This document shows positions 15,636-58,421 of a DNA stretch of 64,000 nucleotides, one piece after another; positions within the stretch are counted from its first letter, which is position 1; each line of letters opens with the position of its first letter. The position numbers were made by a program, and so were the translations under genes. Below the pieces are notes generated by a model. That model saw only the letters and a program-made list of their open reading frames with translations. It made no database searches and had not been told where the DNA came from. The stretch is taken from NCBI GenBank assembly GCA_964036195.1, contig OZ038453.1, positions 15,785,206 to 15,849,205 of the forward strand. Direction: 5' to 3'. This stretch comes from Sphaerolaimus hirsutus (lineage: Eukaryota; Nematoda; Chromadorea; Monhysterida; Sphaerolaimidae).

Positions 15636-16410
15636 CAGGATTGTTAAAAGTACTGAACTTTTAAGTAAACGTAAAGTATTTATTTTTTACTCGCCGCTGA
15701 GTACATAAAACGTAAAGTATGAGTAAACGTGAGTAAATTACTTTTGCCCCTGAAAAACGTGAAAGTTACAATTTACACTCAAAATCACTAATTTTTAAAC
15801 TTTTTACCCTTAAATTCACTAGTTAACTGGTTTTTGCCTATTTTTAAAGCTATTTTCGATATTTTCCATATGTTTAGCTTTTTTGTCCATTTTTCCTCTT
15901 TATGCCTTGAAAAAGACTACCGTATTTGCTTGAATAGTTCTCCCCTTGAAAAATTTCCCCCTCCAATAATCCCCCCTGTAAGACGAGTGAGGAATTAATA
16001 ATCCCCCCTTGAATAATCCCCCTTAAAGATATTTGATCAATTAGTTGTGCCAAATTTTAACAAAAATGGCATGTTTTTGTGTAAAATATGCATATTTCAT
16101 CAAATGACTCGATAGAAAGATATTCAAAAAATTTGACGAAAGTATAATCCCCCCCCCCCGCGGGAATCCCCCCATAGTCCCCCCTCAAAAAGTCTGGCGA
16201 AATAAGAGTCTCCCAGGGGGATTATTCAAGCAAACACGGTATATAAAGCTCTTATAACATAACATATCTTATATACGTTTTCTGTACTAGCGTACATTCA
16301 AAAAGTACGTGAGTACAGGTATTTTTTTCGAGAGGAAACGTAAGCGTATTTACGCAGTACTGGAGTATACGTATTTATCGAGTAAACGTAAATACGTTTT
16401 AACAACGATG
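15636..16410. mobile_element. hAT-like element, TSD TAGAACTG
   Basis: The left end is CAGGATTGTTAAAAGTAC and the right end TACGTTTTAACAACGATG, flanked by perfect 8-bp repeats TAGAACTG (15628-15635 and 16411-16418). The interior reiterates GTAAACGTAAAGTA and AGTACGTGAGTAC motifs. A TACCGTA element (15918-16241) is nested inside. The family also includes 37162-37665 and its duplicate. Confidence 0.85.
15918..16241. mobile_element. TACCGTA element, GCTTGAATAATTCCCC subtype
   Basis: The left end is TACCGTATTTGCTTGAATAG and the right end is ATTCAAGCAAACACGGTA, with TA at both borders. The interior repeats TTGAA(T)AATTCCCCC and its inverse. It is nested in the 15636-16410 hAT-like element and has no coding capacity. 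Confidence 0.85.
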
Positions 16411-17506
16411 TAGAACTGGTAAAAAGTGGTTCGGGAACTACAAATGTGCTTGTAAAATTTTGCTAAATAGATCATTTTTCATTTCATTTCTGCCGCAACA
16501 ACTGTTGCATAATATTATACGTTTTTATGTATAAAATTCTGGTGTGTGTGTGTGTAGTAGATATAACGTAGTGATGGATTTTAACGATTTCCCGCCCCGG
16601 TGCACCGGATTTCTTTGGTCCAGTGCGGTCATTTTTTCTAACTTTGCACCGGTGCGGTCCCGGATTTCTTCGGTCCAGTGTGGTCATCTTTTCCCGTTTT
16701 TCGTCAGAATCGTTGTTTTTTTGATTTTTCTACTAGATTTTGAATTTTCGAATTTTTAGAGCACGATTAAATTGTTTGAAAATTCTGGAAGTGCTATATG
16801 ATGCTGTTACTGGATGTACACATGTTCCATTCACGGTACAAATGCGTCCATAAATAGGTGACATTGTGGACTTGTAATGTGTTGGGAATTTTACCATATT
16901 TTAATGAACGATGAGAGGCATCTCGAGTTATCGAATTTTTGGTCCCTAATTAAAGTGGAACTGAATATTCTGTTTGCTATTATACATATTTGTTTATACA
17001 CAACTTAACTTGTACACTATTATACATATTTGTTTCAGTTTTTGCGACCTGTTGTATGTTTTCCCCGGCGTATTACCATCGCTCAAAAGTTGCGAGTAAA
17101 GCGGGAAACATTGTAAATTAGGAGAAATCCATCCCTTTTAGGTGTCAAAAAAGTGAAATTTGATACATGCACAAACTACACTTTCAGTTGACATATTACT
17201 TTGCTGCGAGTTAAACGCAAACTGAACAAAAACAACTCAGAATTTTCAAGGTCAAATATTTTGTCATTTTAAATGCGTATTTAAAAGCGATTGTAATCAG
17301 AACATGAAACTGATCAATTGATCGTGTATAGATAAGGCAACGTACGCACATATTTAGGATTTCCATAGGATAAATTTTGTAAGATATGTATTTGCATTTT
17401 TTTAAACAATTGTCATAGCTTGTTACGCCTGTTTGAGGAAAAAAGTCAAGTGACATGTGAATCTACAAGTAAACTTATAAGGTACATGTGGAAATATCAC
17501 CTGAGG

Positions 17507-18268
17507 CAGGGGTCTTCAATGGGGTCACCCCAAATCGGCCAGCTAGGTATCTATCTATCCCGAGGCAAATTTTTTGCTACTATCCCTGGAGCCCCCCCCC
17601 CAATCGCTCAACTGATCTGTCTATGTGGAGGAAGTTTGCGTGGCGTTTTGGATGTGAGGAAGGAGGATGTGGCGTTGTTTCCCCAATGTTTACTCAAATT
17701 TTTATTCAAACCCAATTTTTTTCTCTATTTTGCGAATTTTTACCTCAAAACTGCTATGTTCATCTATATAGGTGATTACCGTATTTGCTTGAATAGTTCC
17801 CCTCTTGAATAATTCCCCCTCGAATAATTACCCCCTGTAACACGAGCAAGGAACTATTAATTCCCACCCTCGAATAATCCCCCCCTTTAAAGATTTGAAA
17901 AATTTGTATACCTAATTTTAACAAAAATGGCACGTTATTGTGTTTATAAGGCATGTTTCGGGAAATGAGTTGATGGAAACATGCTTGAAAATTTTGACGA
18001 AATAATAATTCCCCCCTTGAATAATTCCCCCCTCAAATAGTTGCCCCCTCAAAAATGTCTGACGAAATAATAATCCCCCAGGGGGATTATTCAAGCAAAT
18101 ACGGTATATACCTAAGTATTTAAACCTATTTTGATAGATTTTCCCCCGTTCTGCCTGCTATACCTGGAAAAGTTTACCTATATATTGTGCCCCCGCGCGT
18201 CGCCAAAAAAATTTTTTTCTAGATATCCAACCCCCCGGCCCGGAGGGTAAAAATCCTGGAGACCCCTG
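17507..18268. mobile_element. hAT-like element, CAGGGGTCT ends, with nested TACCGTA element
   Basis: The left end is CAGGGGTCTTCAATGGGG and the right end CTGGAGACCCCTG. The flanks ACCTGAGG and ACCTTGGG are a worn 8-bp duplication. The subterminal part repeats AAATCGGCCAGCTA and TATCTATCCC. The inner element is 17777-18106. Confidence 0.75.
17777..18106. mobile_element. TACCGTA element, GCTTGAATAATTCCCC subtype
   Basis: The ends are TACCGTATTTGCTTGAATAG and ATTCAAGCAAATACGGTA. The interior has repeated TTGAATAATTCCCCC and CTCGAATAATCCCCC. It is very similar to 15918-16241. Confidence 0.88.
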
Positions 18269-18454
18269 ACCTTGGGTCAGTGAATGTGACATTGTTTGGT
18301 CTGCTCCAAAATTGTTCGGTCACTGATATTTTTTTTATTACTTAATGTCATTAATTTCAGATATTTCTTTATAATTTCATCACATCATTCCCAGGTTTAG
18401 TAGTTTATATCCCAATTTCATCCCTAGAAATCCTGTCTAAAATTTATCGAAAAA

Positions 18455-18675: not shown

Positions 18676-18723
18676 GTTGGTTTTATTTTGTGTGGAATAA
18701 GTGTGTTTTTTTTGTGTTGTGAC

Positions 18724-22288: not shown

Positions 22289-22690
22289 TACCGTATTACC
22301 TCGAATTAACCCCCTTGAATTAACCCCCCCCTCGAAATACCCCCCCCTAAAATTTGGCTGAGGAAATAATAACCCCCCCCCCCCCTAAAATTGAATGTAA
22401 AGAGAACGTACATGTCAAATACCACAGTTTGTGATCTGTACAATGCAGAACACACGTTAAAACCGATGATTGAGTGACGTTAGGGAAGGGTTTATATGTA
22501 TATACAGTCATATATGACTATAAACACATGTACATCTATGCAAGTGTTTGATTTTTATACGTCTGAGTATAGGGCATTTCCAAAAATTTCTGGCGAAATA
22601 ATAGACCCTCCCCTTGAATTACCCCCCCCCCCGTAACATTTTGCTGGCGAAAAAATAAACCCCCTGGGGGTATTTCGAGGTAATACGGTA
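22289..22690. mobile_element. TACCGTA element, ACCTCGAATTAACCCCC subtype
   Basis: The ends are TACCGTATTACCTCGAATTA and TTTCGAGGTAATACGGTA, with TA borders. The interior holds TCGAAATACCCCCC units and a conserved core (GCAGAACACACGTTAAAAC, then ATGTATATACAGTCATATA) shared with 29544, 41798, 50290, 53916 and 54120. Confidence 0.88.
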
Positions 22691-27436: not shown

Positions 27437-27694
27437 TACCGTATTTCCTCGAATTACTCCCGGGGGTTTATTTTTTCAGAGTGAAAATTTTGAGAGAAAA
27501 ACGTGAAAAATGCAACAATAACCAACATTTATAAGTTTTTACAGCCTTATTTAAGGATGTAGATGGTATAAACGATGTTCTAACGCAACACAGTAAGTGT
27601 TTTGAACATCTGTTATGCATTTCCCGGACCACAAAGTCATAGTGCCCATTTTGAGGGGGGTATTTCGAGGGGGTTATTTCGAGGAAATACGGTA
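27437..27694. mobile_element. TACCGTA element, TTCCTCGAATTACTCCC subtype
   Basis: The ends are TACCGTATTTCCTCGAATTA and ATTTCGAGGAAATACGGTA in TA borders. The interior carries GGGGGTATTTCGAGG units and the conserved core with CTAACGCAACACAG. Confidence 0.87.
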
Positions 27695-28512: not shown

Positions 28513-28900
28513 TACCGTATACTCTTGAATAAGTTCCATGGGGTGTTACTTTTCGTTAATCTGTTTTGACTGGGTATTTTTCAAGGAATAAAAATTAACT
28601 AACAAAAATGGATTACTATTAAATTAATGAAAATGTCACTTAACTTGATAAACGTATGAATTCAATTCTTCAACTATTTATATCCTTAAACTATTACTAT
28701 CTGTAACAACCTTAAAATCTTCAACAACTATCTACTATTATGTTTAATTTGATCTCACTTATTTAAGCGTTTTATGTGACATGTGTGTCTTTTTTAAATA
28801 TACCCGATGGGGGAATTATTCGAGTGGTGTTTTTTATTCTGCTGCTTATTTATTGTCAAAGAGAAGTTATTCGTGACTTATTATTCAAGAATATGCAGTA
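28513..28900. mobile_element. TACCGTA element, TACTCTTGAATAAGTTCC subtype
   Basis: The left end is TACCGTATACTCTTGAATAA and the right end TTATTCAAGAATATGCAGTA. It is the only member of this subtype in the window. Confidence 0.72.
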
Positions 28901-29137
28901 TTCATGTAGGAAAATGAATATGTGAGTTCACTGTGATATACCGTATTACCTCTAATATAATATAAGGTTCACTGTGATATACCTCGAGACAAACGTTATG
29001 CCTTATATTAGAGGGTACCTTATATAAGAGGGTACCTTCAATTATGTTCACCAGATTATAAAGAAAGTTTACCAACAGTGAACAACGATACAGTTCATTT
29101 TTTCAAATTGGAATGTACGAAATAGGTGGTACAGTAT

Positions 29138-30975
29138 TAGCATTCGAAAAATAACCCGTGATTTATATTTTCGAAAATCACAATAAATATAAATAACCCG
29201 TGATTTATATATATTTATATTTTTTCCAAATTCTGAGTGATATATTTATATATATTTTTTAAATTTGAAAAAAAATCACTGAGAAAATCACTTGTACTTG
29301 ATACATTGTGGTGCAATGATTGCGCTTTATGACTAAAACACGCAATCAGTGCAAGAGAAATTTGCAGGGATTTTCTTCAGAAAATCTCTCAGTTCATGTA
29401 GAGCATTACTGGGTTAAAATTGTATTTGAAGCAGGTAAATATTGTTAGCCTACACACACTAGTTTTCACCCTGACTTTTTTGAAAACTGAAATGGCCAAA
29501 AATGGTGACATGTTTCCATCAAGTTTTCCACTACTGAATGCTATACTCCATATTTCCTCAAAATACCCCCCCCCCACGAAATACCCCCTGTTGAGAAATA
29601 CCCCCCAAAATGGGCACTATGAACTTATAACCCCCCACCTTTCGCGAAATACCCCCCTCAAAGTGGGCACTATGAACTTATAACCCCCTCGAAATACCCC
29701 ACCCCAATTTACTGAATAGAGAACATAATGCGGTTTGTGATCCAGGAAACACATGCAAAAAACAATGACTGTGTGATGTTAGAACTGGTTATACACTGTC
29801 TACATACATATAAGTCCATAGAGTGTTATAAATGGCAGTTTTTGTTGCATTTTTTTGATGTTTGTGTACATTTCAAACAACAATTTAGTAATGGGATTTG
29901 AAAAATTTCTGGCAAAATGATAACCCCCCCTCAAAATACCCCCCTCGTTTGACCCCCCTCAAAATTTCCACTCTGAAAAAATAAACCCCCAGGGGGTAAT
30001 TCGAGGAAATACAGTATGTTCAGTTTTCACAAATGGCATGAATTTTGGTGGGGTGGGGTTGGCAAATCACTAGTTTGATCACAACTCAAACTCAAATGAT
30101 GACAAATGGTGACATCACTATCAATTAGTTTTCATTTTGTATGTGACAAAAATGTAAACTGTTTGAGTAACTTTTGATTTATGTCATCCTGCTATGAATT
30201 CTATGGTTATTTTTTAGGTATAAAGCATCTCTCCATCTTTTACCATACTTTTCTGAAATAAAACATGACTTTAAATAAAAAAATACCAATTTGATGTGAT
30301 CAAAATTTTTCTACAGTGATTGCAAGCTCAGTTTACCATTTTTGAAAACTGACAATGCTTGGTGACATGCAACAATGTCGGCTGTTGTCAAATATTGGGA
30401 ACAACTGTGGTAAACTGTCACCATGGTGTCACCAGAGCCACTAGTGTCATCACTATGTTGCCAAAATGTAGCCATGCGCCCAAAAATGAGTTTTCACAGC
30501 ACATCACCAATGAAAAAGTGCTGAGCATGAGCACCGATTTAGTCAAACGTCCATTGCCACAACCAGGCGCTATAGGTTGAAAGCTAAATATTTGCAGTGC
30601 AAAATATTTTTGAAGTTTTCATTGAGGTTGAACTGAAGGTTGAATTTTTCTGTGATATTTGCTTGATGTTTTCACTTGTAAAATACTGTATAAATGAATA
30701 CTGCTTGTGGAATGATAATAAATGGACTGTGGTATCTTAGGGTACATTTTTTTGTGCTTGCAAATGGTAAATTAAGCCCAGAATATGGCTTGAAATTGAA
30801 ATAAAGTGCAAGTGATTTTTTTGAGATTTTTTTTGAGCTTAGAGTTATTTTTTCAGTAATTTAATTATATTTTCTGGAGACCTAGAGTGATTTATATATA
30901 GTTATATTTTTTCCAATATTGGAGTGATAAATTTATATATATTTTCCAAAAAATCGGTGATTTTTTCGAATGCTA
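29138..30975. mobile_element. hAT-like element (1.8 kb), TSD TACAGTAT
   Basis: The ends TAGCATTCGAAAAA and TTTTTTCGAATGCTA are flanked by perfect 8-bp repeats TACAGTAT (29130-29137 and 30976-30983). The subterminal zones reiterate GTGATTTATAT(ATT). It interrupts the 28939-31235 element and is itself interrupted at 29544-30016. Short open frames inside show no transposase similarity. Confidence 0.85.
29544..30016. mobile_element. TACCGTA element, TTCCTCGAAATACCCC subtype (left end worn)
   Basis: The left end is CCATATTTCCTCAAAATACC and the right end ATTCGAGGAAATACAGTA. The interior repeats CGAAATACCCCCC and has the conserved core (ACACTGTCTACATACATATA). It is the innermost of three nested insertions. 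Confidence 0.78.
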
Positions 30976-31707
30976 TACAGTATCACTACAAAATGGCAGA
31001 AGTCGACGAAGAGTTATCGCAGTGCCCTTCGGCACCATTTTCATTATTTCTGCCATGTTTGGCGACTGTTTTTATGATTTGGCACACAGCCAGCTGTGGC
31101 TTATATTAGATGTATGCCTTATATTAGAGGGTACCTTATATTTATTTCGTCGCGTTCAAAAAAGCCAAAAGTTATACCTTATATTAGAGGGTACCTTATA
31201 TTAGAGGGATGCCTTATATTGGAGGTAATACGGTATATCCGAATATTTGATTCTCAGATACCAATATTACATCAAAATCACCCTCAATATTCGCATTTCT
31301 GTGTCAAAAGAATGTTTTAATGCTTTAATTTCGCATTTCCCATGAAAATTGATTCTTGTTCCTAACGTGTTTTTCATTCTCGCCACTGTCTAGTAGGAAT
31401 ATAACAGCCTCAGAAAAAATGGCGTTTTTCGAAAATAAAATACGTTTCATTTTGGCGTCTGGTCCCATTCAAAGTTGTGGCGTAGAATGTAGATAAAATA
31501 CCTATATTACACCAGTAAATCTCTTGTATTCAGAGATTTTTTTTCACCTCCAGCCTAAATATTTCAGGTAAATATGTTGCATGAAAATGGCGCCATTCAT
31601 CAGACACTTGTGTTTTTGCTACTGAATGGCGCCGCGCGCCAGCGCCATATCACGTAGATTGGACCACTATTTTGGAGATCCAATATTCAATGTAAATATG
31701 TACCCAA

Positions 31708-46200: not shown

Positions 46201-49200
46201 GTTATTAGAGTACATAATGAGGGCTGTAGTGCATGTGCACTTGCATTGTTTTGGTTATTCATTTGATACTGCTCAATTTTTCTGAAGAATTGATAAATCA
46301 GTTGTTATTTATTTAAGTTTTTCAATTTATCATATATTAGTGGTATCAAGTGAGTAGTGATGGAAAAGCGCCAGGAAAAATGGCGCCATGGCGTCATTCA
46401 AAATTATGGCGCCAGCGCCAAGATGGCGCCAGGCGCCAATGGCGCCACGGCGCCATCTGAAATAATGGCGTCAGGCCCCAAAGGGCGCCAGAAACAATGG
46501 CGCCGGGCGCCAAAATGGCGCCAACAATAACAGTCACCATTTTAGCATGTATATTCTAACAGAAGCATTTTTTGTTAAGGGCAATATGTTATAACAGTTA
46601 CCTGATGAATAAAATACACAACAACATCATAATCAAGGATATAATACATTTATCAACTCAAATGTCATTTGTGGTTATAAACAATTTACAATTGACCCTG
46701 AAGTTACATGAGACAGCATTGAATTGGTATTTGTACAGAAAATATATTTTATGTTGAGTTGCCACATATTTATACCACCTTCAAATGAAAATTTTGTGAC
46801 ATGTAAAAATGAAATAAGATAGGGTTGTGTTTAGAATAGGACAGAAGATAATAAGAATGCATTGAGAATGATGTTTCATATTTTGTATTTTGTATAGAAG
46901 GAAATTGACTACCGTATGTCTCCGAGTATAATTCCCCCCCCCCCCGATCATAGTGCCCGGGGCATTATACATTGCAAAAAGTTCCATGCATAGTGCCCGG
47001 GCACTATGCAATGCACAAAAAATATTTCGCAAACGATACGGATTACTAAAGACACTCCCATGAATTTTCTCTTTTTGCGCCTGTTGCATGAAGATGAAAG
47101 GATCTATCAGGAATCAAAGGAATCAAAGATGGTTACAAAGGTGTTCAGCATCGGCTGATCATTAGTTGGATTGCATAGTGCCCGGGCACTATGCACAGCA
47201 CTTGGAAAGTGTTTGAAAAAAGCCCCAAATTTGTATAGTGCCCCGGGAATTATACTCGGAGAAATACGGTAGTTGTTATATCTGCTACTACCATTATACC
47301 AGATTATTACATGCTAGCAAGCATAGATGGAAGTTATCACACTAGAGTGTAACAAAACTGGTGTAAATGCACTAGTGTCATTTTTTGCCATGCCAAATGA
47401 AAACATTCTGGTGCTAATCTCAGCGTGGGGGCATAGTGTTGCTGTTTATGTGGAATAAAAACAATGAACAGCAAGCCAAACTTGTAATTCTAGCAAAAAA
47501 AGTGACATGGTTGAATATGCTAAATAATAAAATGATGTCACTCAGCAGATAAGGTACTTGTATATGGAATAATGTAAGCACTCATCGCGGCATTTGGCGC
47601 CATTTCTGGCGCCATGAAAAACAATGGCGCCGGGCGCCAAATTGGCGCCAGCAAAAATGGCGCCAAGCGCCAAGGGCGCCATGGCGCCATTCGAAATGAT
47701 GGCGCCAGCGCCAAGAGGGCGCCAGAGAAAATGGCGCCATGGCGCTGGCGCCCTTTGGCGCCATTAATTGGCGCCAGCGCCATGGCGCCATTCCATCACT
47801 ACAAGTGAGTAACAAAAACAATGTGAGTGCACATGCACCGCAGCGTCTGTTATTTACTTTAATAATCATGGAAACCCAGTACCGCTAATCCACCATGCCA
47901 TGCTAATCCCCCTCGCTAGTCATCTATGTCCCAGTGAATTAGGGGTATAGATGACTAGCGGGTAAAAATTCATGACTGGTGGGTCTTCATGACTAGTGGG
48001 TTTAGATAACTAGTTGGTCTAACTTACAACAAATTTTTTACATTCACATAAATACTTCGAACTACAATGTGTCGCTAAAATACTACAACCCCCCAAAAAT
48101 GCCAAAAAAAACACAAAACAAATAAATTTTCAGGCAGCCATAACCCAACGCGATTCCGCACTGGCCTCATTACGCGAACAGATGGAACAAAATGAAGAGG
48201 TTATTATTCGGGTATATAGAGAAAAAGAAAATCGATTGCAAACTGAATTGGCTGATATACAATATCAGTTGCAGCAGGCGGACAGGTGATTTTTGAGTTA
48301 CGATTCAGTTAAATTGATGTCCACTTTCCGCTTTCTGAAAGCAAAATTTTAAATTTTCCGTTTTCCAGTGGCGGAAAAATTTTACCTTGCCATTTACCGG
48401 CAACAGAAAAGTTTTTACCTGTCTATTTCTGTTTTTCCATTTTCATTTTTCCAGTAGCTGAACAGTGAAGGGCAACCGAGTTGCCATTTTACAGGGCATT
48501 TTACTGACTTTTGGCACTTTGCATGAAATTAGACATTTTACAGGGCATTTTACATAACTTTTAACACTTTGCATGACATTTGACAGTTTACAGGGAATTT
48601 TACATGAGTTTTGACAATTTGCATGACATTTTTCATTTTACAGGGCATTTTACATTACTTTTTCAACTTGGTATGACATTTTACATTTTACATGGTCTGG
48701 TGGTATTGGGACCTCGACCTGACCGAACCTTATTTCTGTCATTTTTCAATCTAAAAAATAATCTCTGATTTTTTCTGAAACACAGAAACGAGCAGCGTCT
48801 ATTGACGGAAATTCAGAAACTGCGGGATGCTAATTCTAGTTTGGAATTGCGACTGCAAACCGCTAGTGCGGAAAAATTGGGTCTTCAGAGAATGGTCAGT
48901 TTTTAGGGGGTATCGGATTTTGGGGGAACTAAATAGTTACCGTATATCCTCGAATATGCCCCCTCAAGAAACTCCCCCCCCCCCTCAAATCTCACCATGT
49001 AGGTAGGTAAGTGAGTAACTCCTCCCCTAGAATAGAATACCTAACTACCCCCCCCCCATTACGTCACATGTATGAAAAATATATTCGGTAAAGTATAAGT
49101 ACAGTATATCCTTGAATAAGACCCACTAGAATAACTCCCTCCATTGAAGTCTTAATTTCCTCTTTAAAATTCTACATACTTTTTCCAGTGTAAACAATTA

Positions 49201-50950
49201 GAGCGGCAATTATTTTCCGCGCGCGAGCGAATTTCATCGAATCCTTCGAACAATCCAAATCAACAAATGAGACATCAAAATTTGTGCTGCAAACAATGCG
49301 GGGAGCCGGTCAGCCCGGACAGCGGATTTGGGGAGGTAAATTGTTTGTTGACTTTTTTATTGTTCGAATTTTCAACTGATAGCAAGATTTTTGTGTGCCT
49401 ATCTAGTGAATTTAATCAACAACTTAACTCCGGTGACGTAAGGGTATACAAGTTTGCACCAGATCGATACGAATGGTTATGTTTCAAGTTCATCAATTTC
49501 ATTAAACGGATTGCTAGCGTCTCACAGCTGATTTTGTTCATTAAAATCATTTCATTCATTTCATTCACTCATTATCTTCATAAAATACTATTTTACGTTT
49601 CTTTGGATCGGTGCCAATATTCGCTGCACAGCTGGCGTGGTGCGCACGAAGGATGGTGCGTGCATATTCGACTATTTCCTTCACTACGATAGTTTAGCAA
49701 TAAGTCACTCAAGTTTCAATTGTAATTTTAATATTAAATGAAAAATTCCTTCCACGCTCTAGCAGTCCAACATACAGAAATGAATCACCCCCCTCAAATA
49801 CCCCCTGCTAAAGAGCACCCCCCTCAAACAACCCCCCCCCCCCGCACAGTCATCCCACATGCAACACAATTCGCCTCAAAATCACGGAGCCGCTAGCGCC
49901 AAAAGCGGCGCCAAGCGCCACAACGTGACGCCAAATTCTGTTTCTGCAGCTGGCGCCAGCGCCAGCGCCAGTGACGCCAGTTTGCGCCAAGAACTGGACT
50001 GTATGCGGGATGAAATTGGGGGGTTGCGCGGTGCTTTGGACAGGCAAATGCACACTTTGGGGGAGGAGAGGGCTAGTTGGCAGGGGGATAGGGAGAAAGT
50101 TGGTTTTGATTTTGTTGTGTTTTATATATTTTGGGGGGGGGACAAGATTGGAATTTTTTTACATCATTTGATCCTGTACAAATGCATTCTGTGGAAAGGT
50201 CACTGTTCCCATATATTTTGAGAGAAGAGGCAGAAAATGTTACACTTCTGTATCAACACTTACCTGTATCAAAACTTCTAAGAAGTACCTACTGTATTTC
50301 CTCGAAATACCCCCAGGGAGTTTATTTTTTCAGAGTGACATTTTTGAGGGGGTATTTCGAGGGGGGAGGGGTTAATTATTACGCCTGAAATTTTTTGAAA
50401 TTTCAGTACTAATTCGTTGTTTGTAACGTACGCAGACGTAGAAAAATGCAACGATAATCGACAAGAATAAGCGTTTATATAAATACAAATAAATATAAGT
50501 AGGTAGATGGTAAATATAAACACTGTTTTAACATAACACAGTGATTGTTTTAACGTGTGTTCTGCATTGCCTGGATAACAAACGGCAGCTTTTGTGATGT
50601 ACGTTCTGTTTACACTCAATTTGGGGGGGGGGTATTTCGAGGGGGGTAATTCGAGGAAATACGGTAGATATTATACTTACCTAGATTTTGCGCATAAATG
50701 CTGTGAATTTTATAGTGTAATGGATCCTACCCACCATCCATCTCCGATCCTTTTTCCACCAATAATCAAATAACTCGCAATCATTACCATAATCCCCTAA
50801 TCCTACCGTAACCCCACAATGCAGATTCTAAAATACCAGAAAACGCTGCAAGACAGCTACAGCCAATTGTCGCGGCGCAGTCACGAATTGGAACGCGCCC
50901 TGCACATGATGGATCCTTATCACCCCCTGGTCAGGGCGGAGAATGAATGA
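34145..50950 (+). CDS. LZTS: LZTS-family (leucine zipper tumour suppressor-like) gene, 17 exons
   Basis: Gene span; exons 34145-34260, 34835-34991, 35114-35178, 39218-39397, 39855-40004, 41346-41403, 42253-42552, 42737-42924, 43890-44047, 44416-44539, 44620-44872, 45252-45494, 48134-48285, 48786-48894, 49189-49335, 49850-50098 and 50825-50950. The join is 2775 nt, open to a TGA (924 residues); every junction keeps phase. The N-terminal two-thirds are low-complexity, rich in Ser, Gln, Asn and Pro. From about residue 665 there is a coiled coil. The end (SLRQELDCMRDEI, EERASWQGDREK, ILKYQKTLQDSYSQLSRR) follows the C-terminus of vertebrate LZTS1/2/3, which act at synapses and microtubules. Vertebrate proteins are about 600-670 residues, so this one is long. 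If exon 18455-18675 is used, the protein is about 991 residues. Confidence 0.82.
34835..34991 (+). CDS. LZTS: LZTS-like exon, Ser-rich
   Basis: The acceptor is a 16-base C-tract then GCAG at 34834; the donor is GTAGGT at 34992. It encodes VYHTGQSQNSVSGSITSSGN then SKSYALPSGSAGQTSIWCD. Composition is low complexity with no motif recognised. Confidence 0.75.
35114..35178 (+). CDS. LZTS: LZTS-like exon (His-rich)
   Basis: The acceptor is CACTTTGCAG at 35113 and the donor GTTTGT at 35179. It encodes APVSSSSGNAHHGHHYEQIM. It ends with two bases of an Arg or Ser codon, which matches the next exon. Confidence 0.75.
35345..35556. repeat. Inverted repeat of the CCCTGTAAAATGTCAAATG family
   Basis: The left arm is CACGTCCCAAACCCTGTAGA; the right arm, inverted, is CCTATCCCAAACCCCGTAAA. 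The arms reiterate GACATTTGACACTTT/GCATGACATT units. Other copies or halves are near 12122, 18880, 24080, 34670, 39685, 43135, 44285 and 48480-48700, several of them close to exons. Confidence 0.65.
35937..36372. mobile_element. TACCGTA element, ACCTCGAATTATCCCCC subtype
   Basis: The ends are TACCGTATTACCTCGAATTA and TTTCGAGGTAATACGGTA in TA borders. The interior has AATGGGCTGGGGAAATAATA and TCGAATTAGCCCCCC units. It is present again at 60345-60774. Confidence 0.87.
37162..37665. mobile_element. hAT-like element, TSD CAACACAC
   Basis: The ends CATAGTTGTTAAAACG and CTTTTAACAACTCTG are flanked by perfect 8-bp repeats CAACACAC (37154-37161 and 37666-37673). The subterminal zones repeat GTAAATACGTTTACGTTTCC and TACTCGAGTAC motifs. 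Same family as 15636-16410; a partial copy is near 34370-34515. Confidence 0.85.
39218..39397 (+). CDS. LZTS: LZTS-like exon (FSDYGSRAM)
   Basis: The acceptor is CCCAACCCCCCAG at 39217 and the donor GTTTGT at 39398. It encodes a Gln/Ser-rich stretch, then HSSGFSDYGSRAMVLPGEGE and APPLPKH. The SDYGSR piece is faintly like the SDSGRNS motif of vertebrate LZTS, which I treat as suggestive only. Confidence 0.75.
39855..40004 (+). CDS. LZTS: LZTS-like exon
   Basis: The acceptor is CACAAATTCAG at 39854 and the donor GTTCGT at 40005. It encodes HQSRSALATTANPVTKSDAM then GDGHTNYEHTYWSTAKTQPD. No motif recognised. Confidence 0.75.
40382..40999. mobile_element. hAT-like element (618 bp), TSD TGTGCAGC
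   Basis: The ends TAGGGTTGGAAAAAA and TCGGCCAACCCTA are flanked by perfect 8-bp repeats TGTGCAGC (40374-40381 and 41000-41007). The subterminal zones are AAAAAACGTTTTTTTT units. It has the same TAGGGTTGG end as the GGTTC elements but a different subterminal unit. Confidence 0.87.
41037..41232. mobile_element. TACCGTA element, GCTTGAATAATCCCCC subtype
   Basis: The ends are TACCGTATTTGCTTGAATAA and ATTCAAGCAAATACGGTA. At 196 bp it is a shortened relative of 17777-18106 and ends 114 bases before an LZTS-like exon. Confidence 0.87.
41346..41403 (+). CDS. LZTS: LZTS-like exon (short, Pro-rich)
   Basis: The acceptor is TTTTTACCCAG at 41345 and the donor GTAAAA at 41404. It is 58 nt and encodes SLPPPARLMPFSGVAPRKE. 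Small, but phase-consistent on both sides. Confidence 0.68.
41798..42216. mobile_element. TACCGTA element, TTCCTCGAAATACCCCC subtype
   Basis: The ends are TACCGTATTTCCTCGAAATA and TATTTCGAGGAAATACGGTA. The interior has GGGGGGTATTTCGAGG units and the conserved core (ACGTGTGTTCTGCACTACGC). It ends 36 bases before the next LZTS-like exon. Confidence 0.9.
42253..42552 (+). CDS. LZTS: LZTS-like exon, 100 codons
   Basis: The acceptor is CCCCCAATCTCAG at 42252 and the donor GTGAGT at 42553; phase 0 at both ends. It encodes QLVRPKPQRVTPGPGSQTAL, a Ser/Gly/Gln-rich middle, and GFWPSESGEKPLNKSAFDLS. Two other frames are open, but only this one joins both neighbours. Confidence 0.8.
42737..42924 (+). 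CDS. LZTS: LZTS-like exon, Arg/Ser-rich
   Basis: The acceptor is ATTTTTCAG at 42736 and the donor GTTGGT at 42925. It encodes SSSHRGVWKRSPSRTSQNRL then YHNPGYRNQPNSAISQGNIG. The donor was chosen because it alone gives the phase the next exon needs. Confidence 0.75.
43279..43741. mobile_element. CAGT(T/C)(G/A)TCCCCGGG-ended element, TA target (463 bp)
   Basis: The left end is CAGTTGTCCCCGGGTTATCG and the right end, inverted, is CAGTCATCCCCGGGTTATCG, with TA on both sides (43277-43278 and 43742-43743), as in Tc1/mariner/pogo elements. The interior repeats GGTTATCGGGTTCCCCG(C/G)ATT in both orientations. Confidence 0.82.
43890..44047 (+). CDS. LZTS: LZTS-like exon
   Basis: The acceptor is AAAATTTCCAG at 43889 and the donor GTTAGT at 44048. 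It encodes QLQEAANLSPEWAELQNIGA then RSYAAPSSRENKTESKNSSN. An overlapping frame is open for 30 codons but meets a stop before the donor. Confidence 0.77.
44416..44539 (+). CDS. LZTS: LZTS-like exon, Ser/Asn-rich
   Basis: The acceptor is AACTTTCAG at 44415 and the donor GTCTGT at 44540. It encodes SSDRQSRSSQSKTTANSSQI, five Asn and MIAGRSRSQHPV. Phases match. Confidence 0.77.
44620..44872 (+). CDS. LZTS: LZTS-like exon, acidic helix
   Basis: The acceptor is CACACGCAG at 44619 and the donor GTCAAT at 44873. It encodes GFPKGPGEQDYEDLVPEFVD, LLMEHLSEQELRQHRAF and NRTAYMHKSVYDQ. Unlike its neighbours it looks folded, with an amphipathic DLLMEHLSEQELRQH helix. No family recognised for this part. 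Confidence 0.8.
45252..45494 (+). CDS. LZTS: LZTS-like exon, Gln/Pro/His-rich
   Basis: The acceptor is CCCCCTCTCAG at 45251 and the donor GTGACT at 45495; phase 0 at both ends. It encodes PAEPPPIDPGPSKHQTRPKS, then HQQQQIYANFGGEASNLQAS and HKDVVTEME, where the coiled coil may begin. Confidence 0.8.
45568..45903. repeat. Long near-perfect hairpin (2 x 164 bp, 8-base loop)
   Basis: The left arm starts TAAACCCCTGTCAACTTCAT, and the right arm is its inverse, ending GTTGACAGGGGTTTA. I count about five mismatches, all transitions, and the loop near 45732-45739 reads CGTTTACA. It lies in the LZTS-like intron 45495-48133, 73 bases after an exon, so the pre-mRNA could fold into a long duplex. Both strands are open because they are the same sequence. 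Confidence 0.93.
46355..47811. mobile_element. hAT-like element with ATGGCGCCA arrays, TSD CAAGTGAG
   Basis: The ends TAGTGATGGAA and TTCCATCACTA are flanked by perfect 8-bp repeats CAAGTGAG (46347-46354 and 47812-47819). The subterminal arrays at 46370-46530 and 47580-47800 consist of ATGGCGCCA, GGCGCCAGCGCCA and similar. No transposase frame. Isolated GGCGCCA patches at 7430-8050, 23905, 31590 and 38270 look like relatives. Confidence 0.88.
46910..47271. mobile_element. TACCGTA element, GTCTCCGAGTATAATTCCCC subtype
   Basis: The ends are TACCGTATGTCTCCGAGTAT and ATACTCGGAGAAATACGGTA in TA borders. The interior repeats CATAGTGCCCGGGCACTATG several times, a self-complementary unit that resembles the end's TATAATTCCC(G) junction (TATAGTGCCCCGGGAATTAT near 47234). 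It is innermost of three nested insertions. Confidence 0.87.
48134..48285 (+). CDS. LZTS: LZTS-like exon, start of coiled coil
   Basis: The acceptor is AATTTTCAG at 48133 and the donor GTGATT at 48286. It encodes RDSALASLREQMEQNEEVII then VYREKENRLQTELADIQYQL. This fits the REAELQQLRDSLDENEA/YEERQ region of vertebrate LZTS2 in spacing and charge. Confidence 0.87.
48786..48894 (+). CDS. LZTS: LZTS-like exon, coiled coil
   Basis: The acceptor is GAAACACAG at 48785 and the donor GTCAGT at 48895. It encodes NEQRLLTEIQKLRDANSSLE then LRLQTASAEKLGLQRM, with regular heptads. Confidence 0.85.
49189..49335 (+). CDS. LZTS: LZTS-like exon with Cys cluster (CCKQCGEP)
   Basis: The acceptor is CTTTTTCCAG at 49188 and the donor GTAAAT at 49336; phase 0. 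It encodes CKQLERQLFSARERI, an Asn/Pro linker, and NLCCKQCGEPVSPDSGFGE. The C-C-x-x-C-G cluster is like half of a zinc ribbon and is unusual for an LZTS protein. Confidence 0.82.
49850..50098 (+). CDS. LZTS: LZTS-like exon, conserved C-terminal coiled coil
   Basis: The acceptor is a C-tract then GCACAG at 49849; the donor is GTTGGT at 50099; phase 0. The first half is an Ala/Ser spacer coded by AGCGCC/GGCGCC repeats. The second half (ASLRQELDCMRDEIGGLRGA, EERASWQGDREK) matches the SLR..ERLR.EL and ERLAWQ.EKE blocks of LZTS. Confidence 0.9.
50290..50666. mobile_element. TACCGTA element, TTCCTCGAAATACCCCC subtype
   Basis: The left end is TACTGTATTTCCTCGAAATA and the right end ATTCGAGGAAATACGGTA. 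It has the conserved core (ACGTGTGTTCTGCATTGCC). It lies in the last LZTS-like intron. Confidence 0.88.
50825..50950 (+). CDS. LZTS: LZTS-like terminal exon with stop
   Basis: The acceptor is CACAATGCAG at 50824 and the stop TGA is at 50948-50950. It encodes ILKYQKTLQDSYSQLSRRSH, ELERALHMMDPYHPLV and RAENE. It matches the V(I)xYQKQLQxxYxxMYRRNxxLExxLxxL ending of vertebrate LZTS, which is the best family evidence in the gene. The vertebrate PDZ-binding tail (ATEI) is absent. Confidence 0.92.
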   Translation: MLKYQKTLQDSYSQLSRRSHELERALHMMDPYHPLVRAENE

Positions 50951-51014: not shown

Positions 51015-51143
51015 TATCGTATTTACTCGAATAATCCCCCCTCTTGAATAATTACCCCCATTGAATGATTCCCCCTCGAATATCCCCCCTCGAAAAACTC
51101 AGACGAAAAATTCCCCTGGAGAATTATTCGAGTAAATGCGGTA
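51015..51143. mobile_element. TACCGTA-like element, TTTACTCGAATAATCCCCC subtype (129 bp)
   Basis: The left end is TATCGTATTTACTCGAATAA and the right end TATTCGAGTAAATGCGGTA. The interior has CCTCGAATATCCCCCC. It lies 65 bases past the LZTS-like stop, so it is probably in the 3' UTR. Confidence 0.8.
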
Positions 51144-53704: not shown

Positions 53705-56700
53705 CTGCAAAAGTTTTCCATTATTTTTTTTCAAATTTTTTTTATATAAAAAGTGAATCAGTAAGTGACATACATGATCAGCGTGAAGTGGACCTTTCTT
53801 CAATGATAAAGTTTGTTCACTTTTTTCATGCCCATTCATTTCCACAAGCAGGACATTGTCTTTTTCCTGACTAGTATGTGGAATATTGTGATCGCCTGAA
53901 AAGTTATAAAACAACTACCGTATTACCTCGAAATACCCCCAGGGTTTTTTTTTATTTCGCCAGCAAAATTTGAGGGGGGGATAATTCGAGGGGGGGGTTA
54001 TTCGAGGGGGGGTGTCTATGATTCCGCCAGAAATTTTCGGAAATTCCGCATACGCAGACGTAGAAAAATCGAACATTTACGTAGATGTAGATGTGTTTAT
54101 AGGCATATATAACTGTATATACCGTATTTCCTCGAAATACCCCCCCCCCCTCGAAATACCCCCCCCCCTCGTTTGACCCCCCCCCCCTCGTTTGACCCCC
54201 CCCCCCCCCCTCGGGACCACTATGGAACAATCACCCCCCCCCTCGAAATACCCCCCCCCAAATTGAGTGTAAAGGGAACGTACATGACAATGACTGCAGT
54301 TTGTGTTCTGTCTACTGCAGAACACACGTTAAAACAATGTCGGTGTCACGTTAGAACAGTGTACATACCATCTACATACTAATATTAGTCTACAGAACCT
54401 TATAAATGGCAGTTTTTGTTGCATTTTTCGACGTCTGCGTACGTTTCAGACGACAATTTCGTATATGGTTTTCAAAAATTTTCTTGTGAAATAATACCCC
54501 CCCCCCCCTCGAAATACCCCCCCTCTCGTTTCACCCCCCCCTCTCGGGACCACTACGAAACAATCACCCCCCGGGGGGGTATTTCGAGGAAATACGGTAT
54601 ACACATAAGCCCTTTCCTACATCACTTAATCATCACTTTTAACGTGTGTTCTGCATTGTACAGATCACAAACTACGGTATTTGTCATGTACGTTCTCTTT
54701 ACACTCAATTTTAGGGGGGTATTCCGAGGGGGGGGGTTATTATTTCCTCAACCGAATTTTAGGGGGGGTATTTCGAGGGGGGGGGGTTAATTCAAGGGGG
54801 GATAATTCGAGGTAATACGGTACATATTCTAGAATGATGATGAGAATTTTTTTTGAAAAAGCTCCTTCATTCAAATCGGATATGGTATATTTCAACGTTT
54901 ACTGCAGTTGGTAGATTACTTTATACTATAGTTGGTAGATTGTTTTATTTTCAAATGGCAAATTAACAGGGTAAAAATACTAAAATAATATTGTTAATAC
55001 TAAAAATATGAGCACTGGTGCAAGTTCCGCAAGTGCCATTTTACTTCTAAATTCACGTCTCATTTTACGTCACTTTAGCCACTTTCTTCTCAATTCACTT
55101 CTCACTTCTCATTTCACTCCGCTTTTGCCATTTTACTTGCCATTTCACTTCTCACTTTACAAATGGTTTATGACTTCTCCAGTTTGAAACTGGCCCCAGA
55201 AAAATACCAAAAACGTCAAGTACTCACTCACCTATCTCTATCGTGTTTAAACACGTGCTATGCCTCAAAACATCCACCCCACCATCATTTTGCATCACTG
55301 TTCCATTTTCATCACATGTGTTTTCATCATTTTCATCAAAAATCAAAGATTTTTCAATTTGATCAAGCCTCATCAGAGCCAATTCTCTGGCTGGAGGTTG
55401 GCATTCATCCAAAAATGTTGTGTTTGACTCTGTCACATGATCTTCAGGTATTGTAGGCTCACTTTTGTGACAAGGATTTTTTCCTCTTTTTAGAATTTTT
55501 CTGCAGTTTTCACTTTCTGTTGGCTGCTCGTCCACTATAATTGTCTCTGCTGGCATGTAGTCATATTGTATTCCAAAGATTTTGTCTCTGAAATTAGTGT
55601 GTGATTCTAAACAGTGACAGGAAATTGAGCTCATGGTAAAGACTTGAAATTCAACTTTCAATTCTATGATATTAGGCTCCTACCTTACCTTTTTAGGAAC
55701 TGGGGAATCAATTTTTCATCAGACTTTTTAAAGGGCCGCTAGCAGAATATTAGATGGGGGCATAATTCAAGGGGTGACAAATAGATCATGCCTAAACCCA
55801 TCTAACAGGGGGAAATAGTCAAGAGAGGGAATTATTCAAGCAAATACTGTCTCTAAGCAAAAAACATACCTCACACATTTTATCCTCACACATGCAGCCA
55901 TACACACGATCATTACATACATAATGAACATGAAAAGTGCCAAAATTGGGCCCGGATTCACAGCTTGCTGATTTGGTATGGACTTGACAATTTGTGTTGT
56001 ATCATTATTGTTTGTGGATGTTTTTTGTGGACTAGGGATATCATTTATTTGCTTTGTGTGAATTGTTGGTGCCTGCATTTGTGATGAGTTTGTAAATGTG
56101 TTGTGGAGTGTGGTCAGAAAATAGGTTTTCTATAACTAGTGGATAGCCCTTTAAAAATTTCCTGTTTTTTAGTGTTGAAAGATAAGTCATAATTTTATTT
56201 TAGTTTTCAAATTTGCAGATTCATAGGTAATTTCATCTCATGGGGCACCTATGAAGTTTTTCAATTACCTATACAGGAAGTATGGAAATTAAGTGTTTAC
56301 ATCCCTGGAAACACCTCTGCAACGCAATATGCATGTACAAAACTATTTTGAAAAACCAAGTATTTTTCACAATGATTCCAAAGATTTGAAGAATAGTGCA
56401 AAAAGCATGTAGGTTATTTATTGCCCTAGTAGCATATTAACAAAATCCAATAATGTGCAAAGTGTTGTGAATTAATAAAGTATTTACCTGTAATTTTATC
56501 ATTTTAGTGCTAATCAATTCCCCACCAAATTCTGTAGTCAGCAAGTGTTCTCTAGACTCCAAAACCTGTATGATACAAAACAACTTTCAATTTGGCACAC
56601 AAGAAAAATGCTGCAGAATAAAGGGATGTTGTCTATAATAAGTATTTTTGTATAGTATTTCAATGATGTTTTAATGAGGAAAACAAAACATCTATAGACT

Positions 56701-58421
56701 AAAATATATCTCCAAACTAGAGCTGCTATATATCACTTTCTTACCAGTACCACTTGCCACTTTTATTCCCACTTGTCCACTGGAGAAATTGGTACAACCT
56801 AAGTTTCCATTGCAAACACTCAACCAAACTAAAATATTGGCTTACAACCCATAACATTCTAAATTTGAGGCTAGCTGAGTCACTTCAAACATGTGCCAAA
56901 TGAAGCATGAAACCAAAATACAGTATTTTTAACTTTCCAGCTGAAAACTCCTTGATGCAAGTTTCCTTATTTATCCACTTACCAGACAAGACACGACTTT
57001 GTTAATCTCATTGACAGAAAGTTGTGAAGAAAATTTTTTTGTTTGAATTTTTGAAAATTTGGAAATATGATAAAATGTAAATTGTCCACGAAAATTTCCA
57101 GCAATGTCCAATTGGCAACACTTGAAAGTGGATACAAATTGCATTGAATAAGAGTTGCATGTGGGTGTACATAAAAACTGAAAAGACAAATTTGTTGTCA
57201 AGACTGAAATCCGGCGGCACACATTTGATGGAATTTTCTGATACGAATTCCGCTTGCAATTTGTGCTATTTTCTGGTTGCACAGAATAGGTAGTCTTCAC
57301 AGAATGTTACAAAAATTTGATCATGTTATACATGTGATAAATTCTGTGCTGAATAACCCCACAGTGAACAAAATGTATTGTGGGAAAGTGTCATAAAAAT
57401 AGTGTTCTATTATTCTGATGGTTTATGGTAAATTTCAGCGCAGAGGGTCCAGCCAGTCAACAGACCACTGTAAACAGAAGAATCTGTTTTCTGAGGTATA
57501 AATATCTAGGATCCACATCTAACATAAAAGTAGCATTGTTTTTGCAGTGCACTCCAGATAATGATGTCATCTTATGAAATTTTCAGAATGTTTTGTTTGT
57601 AAATAGCAAGTGAACACAAACAAGGATTCTGAAAGTGTCATAAAATGACATCATTTAAAAAACGTTCTAAATCTCCAAAATAGAATCAATCTATAGATAA
57701 GAGTCGGCAAGCACCCACTGAGCGACGTTCCACCTAAAGTCTGTACCGTAAATTCTCTAATTGTGCGCCAGGCGTACTATTGTTTTCAGCACATTTTTAG
57801 GGGGCGCACTATTGGAGATGGCGTATGATTGGAGAGTGGCATTTTTTATTTTTCGTCAAATCATAAACTTCAATGTCAACATAACTCAAATGTGAGCATC
57901 ACATTTTAAAGCCTTAAATCTCGTAAATCAAAAGTACCCATAAAGCAGTGAATGACTGTGGCAAAATCGGCTACCTAATACTCTATTCAACGATCGACAC
58001 ATCTGAATCAGACGCATCGTTGCTACTTTTTGACGCAGAGTTTTTTACTTTTTTTTCTCAGGGTGTCGCATTATTGGAGAGTGGCGCACTATACTCGCAC
58101 AACGTGCGCAAGGGTGGCATACTATTGGAGAGGACGCATTATTGGAGACCTGGCGCCCAATTAGAGAATTTACGGTATCTCAATCTTTACATGTTTACAC
58201 AAGCCAACCTTCACAATCTTGTCAGCTCTCATGAGGTCACTTTGCACCAATCTCCCATTAAATTTCACTTGTTTTTCCCTCAATTTACTTGATTTTCTGC
58301 CAATGTCGACCGCAAAAGTGAATCCACCCCCAGCTTTGTTGCAATTCAACTGCAACAAAATCACATCTTTTCTTGTGACCGATTCTTTCAGCTCGTCACA
58401 ATGTAGAGCCATGGAACACTC
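53462..58421 (-). CDS. Unrecognised single-pass membrane protein, receptor-like (7 exons, 5' end missing)
   Basis: Gene span on the minus strand; exons in order 58421-58209, 57294-56983, 56565-56488, 56072-55870, 55587-55232, 53895-53774 and 53704-53462, giving 508 codons then TAA, all junctions in phase. Residues 1 to about 240 form an ectodomain with ten Cys (including LCTPTC and CC) and NST, NLS and NDT sequons. About 243-262 is a hydrophobic helix (ILALFMFIMYVMIVCMAACV) followed by RIK. The tail of about 245 residues is hydrophilic with YDYM and a C-terminal FYDNV. No signal-peptide exon was found upstream. I do not recognise the family. Confidence 0.72.
53774..53895 (-). CDS. Membrane protein, cytoplasmic exon
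   Basis: The acceptor is CTTTTCAG and the donor GTATGT. It encodes GDHNIPHTSQEKDNVLLVEM to KKGPLHADH. Reading on past the donor gives a lysine-rich stretch that is probably intron. Confidence 0.75.
53916..54822. mobile_element. TACCGTA element, ACCTCGAAATACCCCC subtype, interrupted by 54120-54599
   Basis: The ends are TACCGTATTACCTCGAAATA and TAATTCGAGGTAATACGGTA. Its conserved core is split at the TATATA stretch by a relative. The uninterrupted core at 22495-22515 shows the empty site. It begins 21 bases upstream of a membrane-protein exon, on the minus strand's intron side. Confidence 0.9.
54120..54599. mobile_element. TACCGTA element, TTCCTCGAAATACCCCC subtype, nested in a relative
   Basis: The ends are TACCGTATTTCCTCGAAATA and TATTTCGAGGAAATACGGTA. 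Inside are CCCCTCGAAATACCCCCC and CCTCGTTTGACCCCC units and the conserved core. TA on both sides fits a TA target duplication within a (TA) run of the outer copy. Confidence 0.9.
55014..55199. mobile_element. Miniature element, CTGG(G/T)GC(C)AGTT ends
   Basis: The left end is CTGGTGCAAGTTCCGCAAGT and the right end AGTTTGAAACTGGCCCCAG. The interior repeats CATTTTACTTCTCAATTCAC. Related to 14213-14424 and 18724-18881. It lies 32 bases from a membrane-protein exon. Confidence 0.65.
55232..55587 (-). CDS. Membrane protein, main cytoplasmic exon
   Basis: The acceptor is ACTAATTTCAG and the donor GTGAGT. It encodes DKIFGIQYDYMPAETIIVDE, an acidic Asn/Asp-rich middle, and VLRHSTCLNTIEI. YDYM fits the YxxM binding consensus of PI3K p85 SH2 domains. 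Predicted disordered from composition. Confidence 0.78.
55870..56072 (-). CDS. Membrane protein, transmembrane exon
   Basis: The acceptor is ACAAATGCAG and the donor GTATGT. A Thr/Asn/Gln-rich juxtamembrane stalk (TSTNNNDTTQIVK) leads to PILALFMFIMYVMIVCMAAC, a clear membrane helix, then VRIKCVR. Orientation by the positive-inside rule is N-outside. Confidence 0.82.
56488..56565 (-). CDS. Membrane protein, short ectodomain exon
   Basis: The acceptor is TATCATACAG and the donor GTAAAT; 26 codons, phase 0. It encodes VLESREHLLTTEFGGELIST then KMIKLQ. Confidence 0.68.
56983..57294 (-). CDS. Membrane protein, Cys-rich ectodomain exon
   Basis: The acceptor is ATTCTGTGAAG (weak) and the donor GTAAGT; 104 codons, phase 0. 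It encodes VQPENSTNCKRNSYQKIP, VCRRISVLTTNLSFQFLC, TPTCNSYSMQF, STFKCCQLD. The order C..C..C-x3-C..CC recalls cystine-knot domains but lacks the Gly of C-x-G-x-C. The start may be a few codons off. Confidence 0.72.
57744..58177. mobile_element. TACCGTA element, AATTCTCTAATTG(T/G)GCGCC subtype
   Basis: The ends are TACCGTAAATTCTCTAATTG and CAATTAGAGAATTTACGGTA in TA borders. The interior repeats GGCGCACTATTGGAGA(G/T) five or six times, a variant of the end's GCGCCCAATTAGAGA. It ends 32 bases from a membrane-protein exon. Confidence 0.9.
58209..58421 (-). CDS. Membrane protein, most upstream exon found
   Basis: The acceptor is AACCACTTCCAG (minus) and the donor GTTGGC. It encodes ECSMALHCDELKESVTRKDV, ILLQLNCNKAGGGFTFAVDI and FNGRLVQSDLMRADKIVK; 71 codons, phase 0. 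It has no signal peptide, so at least one exon lies further upstream, beyond the repeats or the gap. Confidence 0.7.

Follow-up and report, generated by a model that had tools for sequence, protein, structure and literature searches.

Short TACCGTA-ended elements of the nematode Sphaerolaimus hirsutus have subterminal units with persistent heads and layout and with tails that differ by subtype

Conserved termini combined with divergent subterminal repeats have been described in the plant CACTA transposons (En/Spm, Tgm, Tgmt*), where, in the passages of the paper cited here, the repeat motifs diverge between families, even within one species (PMC2613891). According to the same passages, motif copies are both direct and inverted, the two ends are asymmetric, the motifs have GC-rich and AT-rich parts, and a coevolving binding protein has been proposed (PMC2613891). 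These plant elements are a close precedent for short elements found in a 64,000-nucleotide stretch (the window) of contig OZ038453.1 of S. hirsutus, which likewise have subterminal arrays of direct and inverted motifs that differ between both ends. The resemblance is one of working and not of membership: the elements here have TACCGTA ends and a TA duplication, as opposed to the CACTA terminus and 3-bp duplication of CACTA (En/Spm), and autonomous elements are known there, whereas none was found here in genome searches, several of them partial.

As in Tc1/mariner (IS630) and its MITEs, TA is duplicated and short non-coding elements have inverted ends; however, the DDE_3 elements read in this genome bear other inverted ends, and to our knowledge Tc1/mariner is not defined by arrays of several units with subtype tails. 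Galileo and Foldback-like elements have long terminal repeats and a longer duplication, unlike the short unit arrays and TA seen here. These members of the P superfamily do resemble the nematode elements in having inverted ends that are internally repetitive and structurally variable, as described in the cited part of the source (PMC3573991). A two-base duplication of an AT-only target is also seen in ISL2EU (PHIS superfamily), for which the cited part of the source describes AT duplication in A/AT/T, ends usually starting with GG and a YqaJ-domain partner protein (PMC4482050). In contrast, the sites here are TA and the elements start with CCGTA, with no AT duplication in A/AT/T and no GG start, and the YqaJ profile (PF09588) had no match in the genome, with a control positive in E. 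coli and B. subtilis; ISL2EU was rejected on these grounds. The coral CMITE (PMC2872659) was likewise rejected as an identity, as the relevant part of that paper deals with another group, and the ends were not recognised in the open-licence PMC transposon literature when end string and topics were compared with titles and abstract starts.

In the window, exact TACCGTA occurs 49 times on both strands, as against 4.5 expected, and none of 100 shuffles was as high. When ends were paired by a rule that allowed one core mismatch and required 11 or more of 17 bases in common at positions 8-24 and a spacing of 80-3000, 26 pairs were obtained, some of them overlapping alternatives, while 10 dinucleotide shuffles gave 0-2. 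Inverted TACCGTA-type ends bound 17 elements in the window, most copies being 129-480 bp long, and the non-C-rich subtypes alone account for 4,670 ends genome-wide, with a reversed-pattern control of 1. As short, repeated, inverted-end elements with a target site duplication, these are MITEs (non-autonomous inverted-repeat DNA transposons). The claim of an initial annotation that constant TACCGTA ends have variable continuations is borne out, bases 8-26 being strongly unlike between subtypes. Five of the eight end strings that it named stand exactly behind TACCGTA in the window and three do not: TTTGCTTGAATAATTCCCC is absent from the window and has 369 exact copies in the genome, the ends in the window reading ...AGTTCCCC or ...AATCCCCC; TTACCTCTAATATAAGG is present at 28939 solely in a form interrupted by inserted ATATA, with exact copies elsewhere in the genome; and TTTACTCGAATAATCCCC (51022) is preceded by TATCGTA, not TACCGTA. 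All five internal motifs that it named were found in the window. Some exact TACCGTA copies in the window, e.g. at 11485, 13437 and 33162, are plainly not family ends.

Elements of the TTCCCC subtype lie at 15918..16241 (plus strand, end string TTTGCTTGAATA[A/G]T, 3' core CACGGTA, by pairing) and 17777..18106 (plus, by pairing), both with End B on the left and End A on the right (end types are described below), and at 41037..41232 (minus, End A left, End B right). The CCCCC subtype is represented at 22289..22690 (plus, TTACCTCGAATTA, End B left, End A right), 27437..27694 (minus, TTTCCTCGAA, End A left, End B right, by pairing) and 35937..36372 (plus, TTACCTCGAATTA), and an element at 60345..60774 (plus) has the same subtype and flanks as the last of these. 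The end at 27437 pairs with 30016 as well, and the shorter pair was preferred. Elements of the TTTCCTCGAAATACCCCC subtype are found at 41798..42216 (minus), at 50290..50666 (minus, 5' core TACTGTA, by pairing) and at 54120..54599 (plus, by pairing), where the element is nested within a TATATA run of a TTACCTCGAAATA / CCCCC host element (53916..54822, minus, by pairing) that it interrupts. A TATAAGG element at 28939..31235 (plus, by pairing) contains a nested CCCCC-subtype copy near 29549-30016, the outer end being decayed. Other copies are seen at 28513..28900 (minus, TACTCTTGAATAAGTTCC end, degenerate 3' core TACTGCA), at 46910..47271 (plus, CTCCGAGTATAATTCC end, with GTGCCCGGGCAC palindromes inside and neither A nor B assignable; 46 exact ends of this type in the genome), at 51015..51143 (plus, a short element of the TTTACTCGAATAATCCCC subtype with cores TATCGTA and TGCGGTA, by pairing) and at 57744..58177 (minus, AATTCTCTAATTG / GTGCGCC subtype, with End A on its left and End B on its right; 32 exact ends of this type in the genome).

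Flanks were usable for 50 elements, and for 14 of these a relative spanning the junction was found; in 9 of the 14 cases, 20 or more of 26 bases matched. Among these 9 well-matched paralogous empty sites, 8 fit a single dinucleotide (TA in 5, CA in 2, TC in 1) and one does not. A paralogous empty site was found for 15918..16241 with L027, and a further one at L005 fits a TA duplication; the relatives of 54120..54599 fall 2 bp short of the length expected from the TA model. Most readable empty sites thus indicate duplication of TA on insertion, in agreement with the target proposed earlier, and therefore the mobile part is CCGTA...TACGG.

Two parts make up the subterminal unit: an AT-rich head that varies little (CTCNAATA, with GACGAAA..ATA as the second head) and a tail, usually GC-rich, that depends on the subtype, e.g. 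CCCCC, TTCCCC, TATAAGG, GAAGGGC, GAACGGC or GTGCGCC. Unit spacing is 14-19 bp in 80 of 85 distances. At End A the terminal unit faces a second-type unit, tail-to-tail, and at End B the units form a direct array. Among 56 elements, 41 had A at one end and B at the other, 7 had B only, 3 A only and 5 neither, with none A/A or B/B and with 4 and 5 of 84 in central control windows; the A pattern used is a relaxed form of an initial one, which had given 27 A/B, 19 with B alone, 6 with A alone and 4 with neither, and many copies are related, so that these counts are not independent events. Inverted pairs under 1 kb among 100 genome places listed joined A with B in 11 of 11 cases, as judged by eye. 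Of 7 subtype examples, 6 have the junction of the End A palindrome at base 26-26.5, and the palindrome is strong in just 3. Heads, second head and A/B layout are common to different subtypes.

It had also been claimed that the repeats inside each element are variants of that element's own motif. Such interior copies are visible in window elements, and of 102 interior units scored in 37 elements 81.7 had the own tail as the best match, as against a permuted mean of 19.4 and a maximum of 46.3 in 5000 permutations, where tail consensus strings had been fixed after inspection of the ends, 35 of 137 units were below 60% to any tail, W12881 and L007 had been dropped beforehand, and the single GTATAATTCC element, lacking a consensus, was left unscored. 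For GAAGGGC and AAGTCCC the own tail came out best in only 5 of 11 and 6 of 11 units. By a plain end-key test, the own key was best or tied in 12 of 24 elements, and in several of the remaining 12 the better key was that of the same or a sister subtype. The wording "in each element" is too broad. The single clear interior unit of 28513..28900 is CTCGAATAATTCCCCC, as opposed to its own AAGTTCC (a key slightly handicapped by taking 28903 as the 3' end, the true one being 28900), the GTGCCCGGGCAC repeats of 46910..47271 belong to the stretch adjoining the end unit rather than to that unit itself, and the End A terminal unit of the GAACGGC family is GAAGAGC or GAAAAGC, which breaks the own-tail rule there.

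At least one tail variant has spread to all scored units of single copies. GCGAC is present in every scored unit of two elements of one family (L067, 8 of 8; L076, 24 of 24), whereas 14 other copies of that family have 56 C (GCGCC), 4 A and 2 T at the variant base of 62 units, a count from which L066 and L068 were left out, in which several copies are covered in part, and in which L070/L071 and L077/L080 look like duplicates. In L067 the variant is also seen in the inverted second-type unit and at both termini, and in L076 one unit block is greatly expanded in tandem, array length being variable. Adjacent GAANGGC units were in the same state (G or not-G) in 93 of 100 listed of 2,035; the change from GAACGGC to GAATGGC may be CpG decay and was not taken as concerted. 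Tail concordance, layout and the GCGAC variant support the view that the families are related, with a constant TA/CCGTA terminus, and that ends and interiors changed together. The further claim of the initial annotation, that the array was repeatedly replaced while the terminus stayed fixed, holds in so far as it is mainly the tail, of 6-8 bases, that changed; the array was not swapped wholesale, as the head, the GACGAAA second head and the A/B layout persist.

The observations, namely the elements themselves, the TA duplicated at most readable sites, the constant heads, the concordant tails, the layout and the concerted variant, are probably best explained by non-autonomous TA-target miniature DNA transposons, presumed to move by cut-and-paste, with arrays of two-part putative protein-binding sites whose heads and tails would both be read and whose tails would change in concert. 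A transposon-encoded protein (transposase or accessory binder) would dock on the units, with a conserved domain reading the head and a diversifying domain reading the tail, and the unlike arrays may favour the joining of A ends to B ends. After a shift in tail specificity, those copies that have the new tail in all units would be amplified, with homogenisation by selection among copies together with slippage or unequal exchange in arrays; the tails would thereby change jointly, and terminus, heads and layout would stay. That passive arrays suffice, with repeats at MITE ends homogenised by slippage, unequal exchange and gene conversion and families drifting to their own unit in the absence of protein specificity, seems unlikely, even though array length is variable (with the large tandem expansion in L076) and poly-C tails are prone to slippage. 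Pure homogenisation would be expected to erase whatever distinguishes head from tail and one unit type from the other, whereas heads, second head and A/B layout persist across subtypes, and the tail variant arrives at the inverted second-type unit and both L067 termini too.

Concerted change of one unit half would equally be predicted if the tails were sites for a host factor (a repressor or architectural protein), changing to escape or recruit it, while the transposase reads terminus and head only; this is improbable, as the fixed place of the units adjoining the cleavage terminus indicates transposition rather than regulation. Less probable still is that unrelated families have TACCGTA in common by chance or convergence. 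The stray copies mentioned above and the strong differences at bases 8-26 are what such an origin would give, but heads, second head, A/B layout and TA sites are common to the subtypes.

The autonomous relative with a transposase that the initial annotation suggested looking for was not found, and neither was a transposase or binder tied to these ends, in genome searches several of which were partial, with scopes as follows by domain. Among 163 DDE_Tnp_4 matches, the best 30 and 2 others were read and no TACCGTA pair enclosed the transposase; the best 30 belong mostly to one near-identical family with GGCCCCGCGCACACTAGT ends. PIF/Harbinger was rejected on this basis and on a duplication of 2 bp, not a 3-bp TWA. 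Among 23 DDE_3 matches, 11 loci were read and none is enclosed by a TACCGTA pair within the fetched stretch; six of these (L040-L043, L087, L088) have inverted repeats of their own, and the other five were examined for TACCGTA alone. One family element lies beside the transposase in L042, and L043 and L046 have one end each, none enclosing the transposase. The DDE_1 (pogo) profile gave 0 matches in the genome, its control being likewise silent. Three long end pairs were considered as autonomous candidates: one of 7.2 kb on C14, which has no ORF above 192 aa and looks like a nested composite; one of 8.9 kb on C9, where a retrotransposon-like insert divides a short element; and C6:8628106, a truncated copy. 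Further long end pairs in the genome span 1.1-2.3 kb.

The joint change of a transposon protein and of all the DNA sites that it has to recognise is an open problem, and here one genome holds sister families whose units are set apart chiefly by a short tail, while head, terminus and layout can serve as internal controls. The family-specific end-code may record how transposons and their recognising proteins change together, and, if a partner protein is found, binding and excision assays on the natural variants could address the question. More tentatively, these elements could represent an animal transposon lineage specific for TA, the modular address of which has two parts: a conserved domain would read the head, common to the whole superfamily, and a fast-evolving domain the family tail, which can be swapped. 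The tail would act as a barcode that blocks cross-family mobilisation and all units would be rewritten in concert for each new barcode.

Within the window, no transposase-like ORF was seen in the ORF list, of which the Pfam scan covered 8 of 46. A putative remnant of an ORF end, a possible reading of the sequence, lies at 57983..58039 (minus) inside 57744..58177 and reads SASKSSNDASDSDVSIVE followed by a stop, and L074 reads TSDSDVSIIELE followed by a stop. An STXBP1-like exon is present at 993-1403 of the window.

The best reading of these short elements with inverted TACCGTA-type ends, as far as sequence can tell, is that they are related MITEs targeting TA, each end being built from an array of putative protein-binding sites in two parts. 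In the window (G000:C4:15785206-15849205, part of a 348-Mb genome), TACCGTA is found 49 times versus 4.5 expected, and 26 inverted-end pairs, some of which are alternatives that overlap, are formed where ten shuffles give 0-2. On closer reading these pairs resolve into 17 elements with lengths of 129-2,297 bp; two are nested in other elements, and one of these two has a decayed outer end. No transposase-like ORF was seen in the 17 elements in the ORF list, with a Pfam scan covering 8 of the 46 listed ORFs. Across the genome, one 26-base end has 369 exact copies, and a pattern for the non-C-rich subtypes gives 4,670 matches (reversed pattern, 1). One element is present twice (35937-36372 and 60345-60774), and since the sequence directly beside it is the same both times (agaagtgcgatagga ... 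tgtaaatgaactttt), the two copies lie within a larger duplicated segment; unknown bases (X in translation) occur at 59991-60503, shortly before the 60345 element. The window also carries a STXBP1/Sec1-like exon at 993-1403, which points to an animal.

When units are aligned across subtypes, a two-part design is visible, in which the element's own tail (e.g. CCCCC, TTCCCC, TATAAGG, GAAGGGC, GAACGGC, AAGACCC or GTGCGCC) comes after either of two heads: CTCNAATA, with small variants, or, in a second unit type, GACGAAA or GAGGAAA followed by a few bases and ATA. At one end (End A), an inverted second-type unit opposes the terminal unit tail-to-tail, with the junction 26-26.5 bases from the terminus in six of seven subtype examples and a long palindrome (11 paired bases) in only three of the seven. 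The other (End B) consists of head-to-tail units, with neighbouring heads 14-19 bp apart in 80 of 85 distances. Among 56 distinct elements, 41 have one end of each layout, seven B only, three A only and five neither, and none is A|A or B|B; of 84 control windows taken from the centre, these patterns hit 4 and 5. With the stricter A pattern used at first, 27 elements were A|B, 19 had B only, 6 had A only and 4 neither, again with no A|A or B|B. By eye, each of the 11 inverted pairs less than 1 kb apart, among 100 listed places of the non-C-rich pattern, has an A end opposite a B end.

The initial annotation held that the repeats inside each element copy its own subterminal motif. This has largely been borne out for tails. 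Picking interior units by head alone, and leaving out the outermost 30 bp on either side, gave 137 units in 37 elements. Of the 102 with at least 60% identity to some tail, 81.7 (ties shared) fit their own subtype best; when subtype labels were shuffled among elements 5,000 times, the figure was 19.4 on average and 46.3 at most. Own tails were best for TATAAGG (9/10), GAACGGC (13/14), GTGCGCC (4.5/5), TTCCCC (28.3/31) and CCCCC (15.8/20), and scored poorly for AAGTCCC (6/11), whose interior units tie with TTCCCC, and GAAGGGC (5/11), several of whose units are GAAGGTA or GAACGGC. The claim did not fare as well in a plain end-key test close to the one first proposed, whose result was weak: an element's own key came first, alone or in a tie, in 12 of 24. 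Exceptions include 28513-28900, whose interior lacks repeats of its own tail, 46910-47271, where the repeated palindrome belongs to the stretch adjoining the end unit, and the GAACGGC family, whose terminal unit at End A is GAAGAGC or GAAAAGC. Adjacent two-unit GAANGGC arrays number 2,035 genome-wide (control, 0), and 93 of 100 listed ones are concordant for G or not-G (13 G/G, 80 neither, 7 mixed).

A concerted change of tails is seen in the GTGCGCC-tail family of window element 57744-58177, for which the genome holds 32 exact ends. The variable position is the one just before the tail's final C. One copy (L067) has A there in 8/8 scored units and another (L076, a tandem expansion taken as one case) in 24/24; in the other 14 of 16 members examined, 56 of 62 units have C, four have A and two have T. 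In L067, both terminal units have A, as do those of the interior and the second-type unit that is inverted, and the C/A difference is not CpG decay. L076:1-801 is a satellite-like expansion of element ends with a long GCGAC unit array, and G000:C3:16214545-16214672, also satellite-like, has one end in three copies at exact 51-bp steps. Families also nest in one another: at L064:1501-1765 and L067:1501-1820, elements of the GTGCGCC/GCGAC type have inserted into GAACGGC-type elements, in the region of End A.

By eye, no direct repeat was seen outside TACCGTA at the window elements. The flanks of 50 elements were joined with a single TA and junction-spanning relatives sought in the window and loci; they were present for 14, nine with at least 20 of 26 matching columns. 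Exactly one dinucleotide stands at the site in eight of these nine (TA 5, CA 2, TC 1), four gap-free across all 26 columns and four with a gap elsewhere in them; the cleanest is L068:1552-1826 against L002 and L047 (25/26). The remaining one of the nine is 54120-54599, which is set in a TATATA run and whose relatives are 2 bp shorter. One dinucleotide also fits when L005 is compared with three places. Thus the element proper is most likely CCGTA...TACGG, with TA duplicated on insertion, in keeping with the target duplication first envisaged.

That head and layout stay constant points to a single, conserved plan of docking, and that the tail is swapped, to a changing specificity; protein binding, domain roles and a homogenising process are what we infer. 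The nearest precedent, which works alike, is that of plant CACTA elements. Their termini are conserved and their ends asymmetric, their subterminal motifs diverge, have a GC-rich and an AT-rich part and occur as direct as well as inverted copies, and there are motif subtypes inside one species, with a proposed coevolving binding protein (PMC2613891). Membership in CACTA itself was rejected, however, because both terminus and duplication differ.

The genome was searched for DDE_Tnp_4, DDE_3, DDE_1 (no match, but the control was silent too) and YqaJ (no match). The autonomous relative whose search was proposed initially was not found among the DDE loci examined (11 of 23 DDE_3, a minority of DDE_Tnp_4), which had other ends or no TACCGTA pair enclosing the transposase within the stretch taken. 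End pairs 7-9 kb apart, considered as candidates, look like nested insertions. A short possible ORF end in 57744-family copies (SASKSSNDASDSDVSIVE* in the window, TSDSDVSIIELE* in L074) may be a remnant of a parent gene, and serves as a lead only. One DDE_Tnp_4 (Harbinger-type) family (L009-L038) was probably active recently, since its copies are near-identical (most 98-99.7% alike across 2.4-3.3 kb); its copy L037 is located within a TACCGTA element. Long inverted repeats are present at the Tc1-like DDE_3 loci L040-L043, and in L041, L042 and L043 these repeats have in common a stretch like CATCAAAA.ATAGCCC.AACATTT.TCTA. At L091:1-8951, a 46910-type element is split by a large insert that is flanked by direct repeats and has an open frame of 1,687 residues on its minus strand; by eye the insert looks like a young LTR retrotransposon.

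Other inverted structures in the window include those at 58981-59910 and 63397-64000, which have the same 418-nt spacer and are perhaps two copies of one element (the first has 256-nt arms that are 95% complementary; in the second, truncated where the window stops, the arms measure at least 93 nt and are 99% complementary), and a near-perfect hairpin at 45568-45903, with 164-nt arms (97% complementary) and an 8-nt loop.
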